Positions 11,819 through 14,623 of a stretch of 64,000 nt of DNA are shown piece after piece. Source of the stretch: an uncultured Erysipelotrichaceae bacterium (GTDB taxonomy: Bacteria > Bacillota_I > Bacilli_A > Erysipelotrichales > Erysipelotrichaceae); the NCBI GenBank assembly GCA_947569705.1, contig CANOSP010000001.1:62001-126000 (forward strand), given 5' to 3'. Both the position numbers and the translations under genes were made by a program. Under the pieces are notes generated by a model, which saw only the letters and a program-made list of their open reading frames with translations, was not told the DNA's origin and made no database searches. Positions within the stretch are counted from its first letter, which is position 1; every line of letters starts with the position of its first letter.

Positions 11819-11936
11819 TCAGCGAATCGTATAATTATGAGAAAAGGGAAATCGAGATCTTTGCATTTACATAAATTTATTATGCGACAGGCTGAATAAT
11901 CAAAAAACTTACAATAAAAACTATTTTATTAAACAT

Positions 11937-11970
11937 GGTACTTGACAATGCAAGGTACTGGATGTATTAT
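11937..11970 (+). promoter_or_regulatory. PadR operon promoter with overlapping dyad
   Basis: TTGACA (11942-11947) and TATTAT (11965-11970) are 17 bases apart. GTACTTG and CAAGGTAC lie on either side of ACAATG, so an imperfect dyad covers the -35 box. This is where an autoregulating PadR repressor would bind; that role is inferred. Confidence 0.5.
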
Positions 11971-11988
11971 AATAGTGAGGTGAAGGTA

Positions 11989-12312
11989 ATGAATACCCAA
12001 TTTAAGAAAGGGGTACTGGAGCTGATTGTGTTATTATCCGTAAATAAAAAGGATATGTACGGATATGAATTGGTAAATGAAGTCAGTAAGGTCGTAAATG
12101 TCAATGAAGGCACGATCTACCCGCTGTTAAAGCGTTTAACCAATGAACACTATTTTGAAACCTATTTAGAGGAATCCAAGGAAGGACCGCCCCGAAAGTA
12201 TTATCGTCTGACAGAGTCCGGCAGAAAACAGAAAAAAATACTGCTGGCTGAATGGACAACCTTTCATGAGCAAGTCAACGCATTTATCAAGGAGAGTGAA
12301 AAAGATGAATAA
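11989..12312 (+). CDS. PadR family transcriptional regulator
   Basis: 107 residues forming a winged helix of the PadR type: FKKGVLELIVLLSV, MYGYELVNEV, EGTIYPLLKRL and the GPPRKYYRLTESG wing. These proteins repress stress or efflux genes and often their own operon. The ATG at 11989 follows GAGGTGAAGGT; an upstream in-frame ATG lies inside the promoter. It overlaps the DUF1700 gene by eight bases. PadR-DUF1700 is a common pair in Firmicutes. It might also control the ABC transporters just upstream. Confidence 0.88.
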   Translation: MNTQFKKGVLELIVLLSVNKKDMYGYELVNEVSKVVNVNEGTIYPLLKRLTNEHYFETYLEESKEGPPRKYYRLTESGRKQKKILLAEWTTFHEQVNAFIKESEKDE

Positions 12313-13303
12313 AGAACAGTTTATTGCTTATATGAATCAGCATTTGGCTGTCATCAAAGAAGATGAGTGAAAAGATATTATTGATGAATACATCAATCAT
12401 ATTGATGAAAAAGTATCTGAGGGAATGAGTGAGGAAGAAGTTATTGAAAGCTTCGGAAATATTGATGAAATGATTAAAGAAATATTAGATGCTTATAATA
12501 TTGATCCCAAGCAGGCAAAAAGCACTGCCAGCGGGTTCGATAAAAAAGTCAATGAAGTGCTGGATGTTCTGTTTGAAGGCTTTCAAAGCTTTTTAAGCAA
12601 GATTACAAGCATGGATGTCGACAGCATCGTCAGACTGATGTTCGAGGTACTGGTTGTATTGCTCGTTCTTGCAATTCTTAGAATTCCTTTTGAGATTATG
12701 GAATCGATCGGCGCATCCTTACTCAAAAGCTTGTTCGGCTATGGTATCGGAAGTACATTCGCATGGATATGGCATTTAATTTGCAGCATCCTGTATATCG
12801 TAATGTTTATTGTGGCTTTAATTAATGTGACAAGCAGACGCTGGGCGCATTTTAAAGGAAAACAGAACACACCGATCATGGATGATGTAAAAGAAAGCTT
12901 TAACTTTGAACAAGCCAAGGAAGCGGTACGCCGCTTTACCGAAGGAGTCGCTCAAAGCGAACAGGAAGAAGCATCGGATTCAGAATCAGACGATGACAGT
13001 GATAAGGAACAAGCGGAAAAAACAACAAAACAGGGCCATCGTTATTCTTACGAGGCAAAGCACGATTATGAATACCATCATCCTTCTTTATTAAGAATCT
13101 GTATGCAGATATTCGGTTTTCTGTTTATGATTCCGTTTATTATGACTGTTGTTGTGCTGTGCTGTCTGTTGGCGTGGCTGATAGCGATGAGCTTTCAGGG
13201 AGTTACCGTTGTCGGCTTCTATTTCTTAGTAATCGGAGCGATTATCGGATGCAGCGGCGTGATCTCATTGATTGATCGCTATTTATGCAAAGGAGGACAT
13301 TAA
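12305..13303 (+). pseudogene. DUF1700 membrane protein interrupted by an in-frame TGA
   Basis: Translation from the ATG at 12305 gives MNKEQFIAYMNQHLAVIKEDE, a typical DUF1700 start. Codon 22 (12368-12370) is then TGA, and the frame continues as KDIIDEYINHIDEKVSEGMSEEEV with the family's conserved acidic helix. CGA or AGA would restore it. The rest has two or more membrane segments (about 95-150 and near the C-terminus) and an acidic linker. The next ATG (12425) has only a badly spaced GAGGG. So the gene is broken unless readthrough or reinitiation occurs; a sequencing error is also possible. Confidence 0.65.
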
Positions 13304-13304
13304 T

Positions 13305-13760
13305 ATGAGAAAATTTATGGTTTGTATGGTTGTTTCTATGGTCTTTCTTTCCATCGGTTTCGCTCTGTGTCTATTTGAATTATCTGACTATGAGTTTGTG
13401 GAATATAATGAAATTGCCGAAACTACCGTCTTGGATACTACCGTCAGTGAGCATAATAAGCTGCGTTTGGATATCGACGATGATATTCGCATTGCGTTTG
13501 AATATGATGAAGATGCCAAAGATAAGGTCAGTATTGAATTCAGCAGTTTATTAAACTATAAGAAAAATGACAGCCGCATTAAGATTAAGGATCTTTCTTG
13601 GTCATGGTCAAGCTGGAAAAAGTATTATACGATATTTATTGACGGCTTGCGTGATCATAAATTAACCGCATTTCATCCTCATTATACAAATGACGATGTT
13701 GAACTTGTGACCGTCACTTGTTCCAAAGCAGCTGAAAAGTGGATTGAAATTCATAATTAA
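13305..13760 (+). CDS. Membrane-anchored protein downstream of DUF1700
   Basis: 151 residues: an N-terminal hydrophobic segment (MVCMVVSMVFLSIGFALCLF) followed by an exported beta-rich domain. AGGAGG lies before the ATG at 13305, one base after the previous stop region. PadR-DUF1700 operons often end with a DUF4097 adhesin-like protein of 250 residues or more. This one is in the same position but much shorter, so it may be a truncated or divergent member. Confidence 0.5.
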   Translation: MRKFMVCMVVSMVFLSIGFALCLFELSDYEFVEYNEIAETTVLDTTVSEHNKLRLDIDDDIRIAFEYDEDAKDKVSIEFSSLLNYKKNDSRIKIKDLSWSWSSWKKYYTIFIDGLRDHKLTAFHPHYTNDDVELVTVTCSKAAEKWIEIHN

Positions 13761-13832
13761 CAAACGGATACAAGGAGAATAGGATAATTACATTGTTTTG
13801 AAACAAATTTTCATTAAATGTAAAAAAATACA

Positions 13833-13861
13833 TTGACGAATGAAATAAAATGATGTATAAT
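13833..13861 (+). promoter_or_regulatory. Strong sigma-A promoter of the small RNA
   Basis: TTGACG (13833-13838) and perfect TATAAT (13856-13861) are separated by 17 bases. No start codon with a ribosome site follows before the terminator at 13965, so the transcript is probably noncoding. Confidence 0.7.
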
Positions 13862-13867
13862 AATACC

Positions 13868-13987
13868 ATGATTTTAATCATCGTACTCAAGCAAGAATGA
13901 CCTAATATCCCTTACCCCTCCTTGTTTCCAATCTATCCTGATATTCTTGCATGAGTTTGTAAGGAACCGTTATTCAACGGTTTTTTT
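13868..13987 (+). ncRNA. Putative small RNA with anti-Shine-Dalgarno loop
   Basis: A transcript of about 120 bases is bounded by a consensus promoter and a terminator. It starts with a small hairpin (ATGAT/ATCAT), then a 14-base arm at 13885-13898 pairs with 13943-13956 (ACTCAAGCAAGAAT with ATTCTTGCATGAGT, one mismatch). The 44-base loop is pyrimidine-rich, looks unstructured and contains CCTCCTT at 13917-13923, the 16S anti-Shine-Dalgarno core. The terminator stem is AACCGTT/AACGGTT (13965-13982) with seven T. C-rich loops of this type mark trans-acting sRNAs in staphylococci and streptococci. I recognise no known class. Confidence 0.55.
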
Positions 13988-14091: not shown

Positions 14092-14120
14092 TTGTAAAAT
14101 GAGGCGAAACTGTGTATAAT
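14092..14120 (+). promoter_or_regulatory. Promoter of lspA-rluD
   Basis: TTGTAA (14092-14097) and TATAAT (14115-14120) with a 17-base spacer, 36 bases before the lspA start. Confidence 0.5.
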
Positions 14121-14155: not shown

Positions 14156-14623
14156 ATGAAGTTCAAACATGTTTTAATAGGAATCGCAACGATTCTCATC
14201 GATCAAATCACAAAGATTGCGGCAGCTTCTTCGTTAAGCAGCGGAAGTATTACGATAATTCCCGGCTTTTTTCGTTTTACCTATGCGGAAAACAGCGGTG
14301 CTGCATGGAGTATGCTGGAAGGGAAAATGTGGTTCTTTTACATTATCACGGTGATTGCGTTAATTGCCATGGTGATGTTTTATCGCAATCAAGCAGACAG
14401 TGATGAGTTGGTTAAGGTATCACTGGTACTGATGATGGCAGGAACAATCGGTAATTTTATCGATCGATTATGCTTTCAGCATGTACGTGATTTTTTAGAT
14501 TTTACTATATTCGGATATGATTTTCCGATTTTTAATGTTGCGGATATGGCACTTTGTATCGGCGTATTCCTGATTATCGTTGATGTATTGCTGGAAAACA
14601 GCGGGATTACATTAAAAAAATGA
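14156..14623 (+). CDS. lspA: Lipoprotein signal peptidase (signal peptidase II)
   Basis: 155 residues with four membrane helices and the family motifs NSGAAWS, GNFIDRL with catalytic Asp103 and FNVADMAL with catalytic Asp130. This aspartic protease removes signal peptides from prolipoproteins after lipid attachment, and several lipoproteins in this window need it. GTGAAGTC precedes the ATG. It overlaps rluD by ATGA, the same lspA-rluD order as in Bacillus. Confidence 0.95.
   Translation: MKFKHVLIGIATILIDQITKIAAASSLSSGSITIIPGFFRFTYAENSGAAWSMLEGKMWFFYIITVIALIAMVMFYRNQADSDELVKVSLVLMMAGTIGNFIDRLCFQHVRDFLDFTIFGYDFPIFNVADMALCIGVFLIIVDVLLENSGITLKK

Follow-up and report, generated by a model that had tools for sequence, protein, structure and literature searches.

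A 155-nt stretch (positions 13833-13987) in the genome of an uncultured member of the Erysipelotrichaceae carries a single-copy gene that is best explained as specifying a trans-acting small RNA (sRNA) of about 120 nt, which would block the Shine-Dalgarno sequences of mRNAs; we put the probability of this reading at roughly 0.7. The RNA family itself is convincingly real. The gene is situated between a small gene ending at position 13760 and lspA (14156-14623; Pfam Peptidase_A8), within what is referred to here as the window, that is, the whole 64-kb stretch of DNA that was analysed, to which all positions given without a genome name refer.

All elements of the locus are on the plus strand. 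A sigma-70 promoter, TTGACG-17-TATAAT, at 13833-13861 (-35 element at 13833-13838, -10 element at 13856-13861) agrees with the consensus at 11 of 12 positions and lies where the preliminary description of this DNA had placed it. Transcription would start at about 13868, where a 5' mini-hairpin begins (ATGATTTTAATCAT, 13868-13881; it folds in this genome and in G006). A closing stem follows, supported by both folding and covariation, whose 5' arm (13885-13899) pairs with its 3' arm (13942-13956) in the minimum-energy fold. The 14-bp stem of the preliminary description is thus borne out, with one A/A mismatch, but the pyrimidine-rich loop that it closes measures 42 nt (13900-13941) in the fold and not the 44 first counted. 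As had also been described, the loop contains the anti-Shine-Dalgarno core CCTCCTT (13917-13923), and the unit ends in an intrinsic terminator, for which folding gives a stem (AAGGAACCGTT/AACGGTTTTTT) followed by a T-run (13961-13987). A second C-rich loop element (CTATCCTGAT) is present at 13933-13942. A transcript of about 120 nt is expected. No open reading frame had been seen in it, and the only ATG frame at its 5' end, of 10 codons, is not conserved; a small-ORF reading fails, as no frame is kept among the members of the family. Judged by its sequence, the unit appears to be an independent gene with its own promoter and terminator and no ORF. It is present in a single copy; a covariance model (the second of two described below) found one match in 464 kb of the same genome (E value of 1.2e-12), the next having an E value of 0.86.

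The predicted structure is more stable than those of shuffled sequences. The whole 155-nt stretch has a fold z-score of -4.3, with none of 200 shuffled sequences folding as well, and the stem-loop by itself has a z-score of -3.6 (0 of 500 shuffles as good). In the structure ensemble of this sequence the anti-Shine-Dalgarno core is single-stranded, CCUCCUU being 93% unpaired.

The heptamer alone is weak evidence, as Shine-Dalgarno sites on the opposite strand read identically: CCTCCTT occurs 9 times in the window versus 3.4 expected, and many matches in an order-wide search for the pattern CCTCCTT-N-TTCCTAAT were reversed Shine-Dalgarno sites of rpsN (a recurring 30-nt match). The copy at 13917 is not such a site, because no start codon is found on the minus strand within 20 nt downstream of the AAGGAGG. 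The case for the sRNA rests on the combination of its parts and on their conservation, not on the heptamer.

Homologues were sought in 40 genomes, and the sRNA gene was found in 15 of them, belonging to seven GTDB genera of one family, the Erysipelotrichaceae. A plain DNA search (blastn) with the sequence itself recovered G006 (96% identity) and G002 and G005 (about 70%), all of the same genus and all upstream of lspA; in whole genomes, this search gave nothing beyond the genus. The same layout was read upstream of lspA in G003, Longicatena caecimuris and G012, G001 was added by the order-wide pattern search, and three genomes of genus g73 were added by a scan upstream of lspA. A blastn search with the Longicatena sequence found G081. 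A first covariance model, built from G081, Longicatena and G012 (three genera other than that of the window), found G068, and when seven held-out loci were scanned with it unfiltered, each yielded exactly one match, always the sRNA candidate; the locus in the window was matched at its exact place (E value of 0.079). A second model, built from these seven held-out loci, matched the unseen G012, G081, G073 and G087 in whole genomes (E values of 1.9e-8 to 1e-4) and gained G030, of the genus of Dielma, and G307. The assignment to Dielma is based on an lspA upstream region identical to that of a Dielma fastidiosa record, and the member from this genus neighbours lspA. G073 and Longicatena caecimuris have identical copies. 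Weak second-model matches in G004, G005, G183 and G084 were rejected, being either reversed Shine-Dalgarno sites or without promoter or terminator. No sRNA gene was found in the remaining genomes of the 40, including G004, which is of the same genus and 99% complete; this absence is not proof, as the second model also misses the diverged copies in G002 and G005.

In an alignment of 11 homologues with a mean identity of 51%, no contiguous block other than CCTCCTT is invariant. Some members were chosen through patterns, synteny or models that partly required CCTCC, which inflates this invariance. However, G006, G002 and G005 were found by blastn with the whole region, free of any such selection, yet they keep CCTCCTT. 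Folded independently, the core of every homologue formed an open loop closed by a stem, and CCUCCUU was predicted to be 70-98% unpaired in 12 members. In MAFFT alignments of the full set, the closing stems were out of register, and covariance models were used for this reason. In a seven-sequence alignment, 15 of the 16 stem pairs have changed on both sides, and 88.5% of the cells are paired, compared with 56% for shuffled columns and 35-47% for slid partners, although this alignment was fitted to the structure and so leans the pair count in its favour. Because of this, a test that needs no alignment was also run, in which the cognate 5' and 3' flanks of ten members outperformed swapped flanks (0 of 20,000 permutations as good). 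The preliminary description had made its claim depend on both arms of the stem, as well as the loop, being conserved in relatives; this was strongly confirmed, both by covariation and by the matches at held-out loci.

Other parts of the RNA are shared to varying degrees. Most homologues have the second C-rich element too, 3' of CCTCCTT and in the form YTTTCCT[AG]AT. Hairpins of the GATTT/AAATC type are found at the 5' ends in G003, G001, Longicatena and G012, and most homologues also have terminators, which differ in sequence. In genus g73 (L176, L180 and L288), the T-run comes directly after the closing stem; one hairpin appears to be both scaffold and terminator there, and the RNA is shortened to about 80 nt. 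A pseudoknot between the loop and the terminator spacer was considered and rejected, as 6 to 8 bp can form in the window sequence and in G003 while the others do not exceed chance.

The invariant block equals the core of the 16S rRNA tail, and this bears on a different reading, in which a protein that normally binds the 16S 3' end or C-rich RNA would be caught by the loop as a decoy or platform, and any regulation would be indirect, by titration. The 16S tail reads GATCACCTCCTT, and G003 and G001 carry the similar TTCACCTCCTT in the loop; a rigid stem-loop would also suit a protein. Nothing specific speaks against this reading, except that the sequence on either side of the core is variable and protein sites usually keep structure as well. 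We regard this reading as unlikely.

The position of the gene raises the question of whether the RNA instead acts in cis on lspA, as a leader or attenuator whose stem-loop and terminator control read-through. In most members the RNA immediately precedes lspA, and it has a terminator at its 3' end, as such a leader would. However, promoter-like TATAAT sequences are located 3' of the sRNA terminator and before lspA, at 14092-14120 in the window; the pairing of the loop with the terminator spacer is not conserved; and the RNA is kept at 5.4 kb from lspA in G081, where it follows a PadR-type operon, and at 0.8-1.6 kb in G068 and G030. Since the RNA moves away from lspA with its promoter, stem, loop and terminator intact, a leader function is very unlikely. 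Besides this lspA, a diverged paralogue (35% identity) was observed in the genome of the window, at G000:C22:2870-3295, and also in G002, G004, G005 and G006.

It would also be conceivable that the sRNA sponges, or is itself targeted by, another RNA with Shine-Dalgarno-like purine motifs, as its two C-rich loop elements would bind any purine-rich partner. We consider this quite improbable, given that no partner RNA was found and that the gene is single-copy with its own conserved promoter. That the RNA is the 6S RNA of the lineage, which likewise combines a long stem and a large unpaired region, or some other known housekeeping RNA, is largely refuted, as the sRNA has no Rfam match (RF00013 included) and a separate 6S candidate, matched over its full length, lies outside the window in the same genome (G000 C6:67629-67788, E value of 4.7e-6, below the gathering score). 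Most of the Erysipelotrichales 6S candidates that were searched score near or under the Rfam cut-off.

The promoter of the sRNA is conserved together with the RNA. Its spacer is 17 bp in 13 of 13 aligned promoters. Upstream of the promoter in the window lies an operator-like inverted repeat (TGAAACAAATTTTCA, 13799-13813), and the corresponding motif, TG[AGT]AA-N3-6-TTTCA, is present 21-46 nt upstream of the -35 element in all 11 homologous promoters (shuffled sequences gave a mean of 0.11 and a maximum of 2), a count whose significance is overstated because the motif was defined on those same sequences. The repeat spans several genera, and its stricter form, TGAAA-N2-5-TTTCA, occurs once in the window, at the sRNA promoter. 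CcpA and CodY were considered for it: the arms resemble cre sites, and the central CG is missing. The repeat is a candidate binding site for a regulator. A second inverted repeat, ATGT-N8-ACAT (13818-13833), overlaps the -35 element; it occurs once in the window, with 1.7 occurrences expected by chance, is common to G002, G005 and G006, and is only half retained elsewhere. We take it to be PadR-operator-like.

In the region preceding the sRNA gene (11935-13760), a PadR-type regulator (Pfam PadR, 2e-19) is encoded first, a HAAS/DUF1700-like membrane protein next and a DUF4097-like protein last; the latter two were named by eye, the listed ORFs having no Pfam match at 1e-3. The HAAS/DUF1700-like frame probably opens near 12306, upstream of the listed 12425. 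An operon of this PadR type adjoins the sRNA in G003 (L042) as well, and part of one does so in G081 and G068.

As a trans-acting regulator, the sRNA would have its transcription driven by the gene's own sigma-70 promoter and stopped at the intrinsic terminator, the long closing stem serving as a scaffold that holds the pyrimidine-rich loop single-stranded. The loop would display CCUCCUU, a copy of the core of the 16S rRNA 3' tail, together with the second C-rich element (YUWUCCURAU in RNA form), and would base pair in trans with the Shine-Dalgarno regions of a set of mRNAs. Such pairing would block 30S binding and repress translation without the need for Hfq; the preliminary description likewise proposed that many messages could be repressed. 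From these features we infer that the gene is expressed, that its RNA pairs with mRNAs and that the outcome is repressive; the covering of ribosome-binding sites is the likely mechanism. By analogy with the csRNAs, LhrC and alpha-r14, and given the fixed anti-Shine-Dalgarno core, repression through covered Shine-Dalgarno sites appears to be the best-supported reading. Hfq (Pfam PF17209) was not found in any of nine genomes (that of the window and eight relatives), and five control genomes were positive. The sRNA is therefore expected to act independently of Hfq, as is assumed for the C-rich sRNAs of Gram-positive bacteria.

The loop can pair with ribosome-binding sites of the AAGGAGG type. Of the 378 ORFs predicted in 464 kb of the genome, 30 have AAGGAGG and 64 have AGGAGG upstream of the start. 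Pairing at or below -18 kcal/mol was predicted for 75 starts versus 28 gene interiors out of the 378, and shuffled loops do equally well; the median pairing energies with start regions are alike for shuffled and real loops (-13.8 versus -13.6 kcal/mol). As shuffled loops reach the same median, the predicted pairing with starts reflects pyrimidine content rather than specificity. The top predicted targets are ftsE (first, -31.9), a cupin-type HTH regulator and hisB, all named by eye; for the same reason no target is claimed, and ftsE is only a lead.

In low-GC Gram-positive bacteria, the blocking of Shine-Dalgarno sites by unpaired C-rich motifs is an established mode of regulation (PMC4132741, PMC3091779). 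The sRNA itself matched no Rfam family at the gathering score, and a low-threshold scan (E values up to 10) gave chance matches only. The preliminary description correctly held its architecture to be unlike that of RsaE and of the csRNAs; the nearest design is that of the alpha-r14/NfeR1 ("cuckoo") sRNAs of the Alphaproteobacteria, in which an invariant anti-Shine-Dalgarno motif lies in unpaired hairpin regions while the stems are very different (PMC10746234). In both, an invariant motif is kept in a loop while the stems change freely, a shared design without homology, and both have an RpoD promoter with a conserved upstream stretch. However, alpha-r14 has three hairpins, each with CCUCCUCCC, whereas here one large loop holds CCUCCUU and the second C-rich element; moreover, the phylum is distant, there is no Rfam match or sign of common descent, and the host has no detected Hfq. 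The Streptococcus csRNAs, which belong to the CiaRH regulon, likewise end in an intrinsic terminator and leave unpaired a sequence that is complementary to Shine-Dalgarno regions; their anti-Shine-Dalgarno sequence lies between two stem-loops, usually with an anti-start-codon CAU, they occur in several copies, and their promoters carry the CiaR repeat TTTAAG-N5-TTTAAG (PMC3091779). Here, in contrast, the sequence lies inside a stem-closed loop, the gene is single-copy, and the promoter has the TGAAA-N-TTTCA element; no CiaR repeat was found in the 75 nt upstream of the -35 element in 13 members. RsaE/RoxS, FsrA and LhrC of the Firmicutes share a UCCC motif in small loops or linkers (PMC4132741). 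The sRNA resembles them in having a C-rich single-stranded motif thought to block translation initiation, but matches none of these families in Rfam. As each failed a defining feature, the sRNA was not filed under alpha-r14, csRNA, RsaE or 6S. It would work in the manner of the alpha-r14/cuckoo RNAs and csRNAs, without sharing descent with either. We file it as a new RNA family, absent from Rfam and from the literature searched, of an already known functional kind.

The Erysipelotrichaceae are abundant in animal guts, and in the literature and Rfam searched no trans-acting sRNA has been described for them; the one reported here is conserved, with its promoter, in seven genera. A broader reading, possible if rather doubtful, is that it might be a family-wide mimic of the 16S 3' tail, a global brake on messages with strong Shine-Dalgarno sequences in Hfq-free gut bacteria, switched by a dedicated regulator at TGAAA-N-TTTCA, the stem being free to change and the mimic fixed. 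Anti-Shine-Dalgarno regulators are already known from Alphaproteobacteria, streptococci, Listeria and staphylococci. If the trans-acting reading is true, such regulators would have arisen again, in a lineage without detected Hfq, and this single-copy gene would make a clean model in which to ask what gives selectivity to an RNA copying the tail of the ribosome itself.
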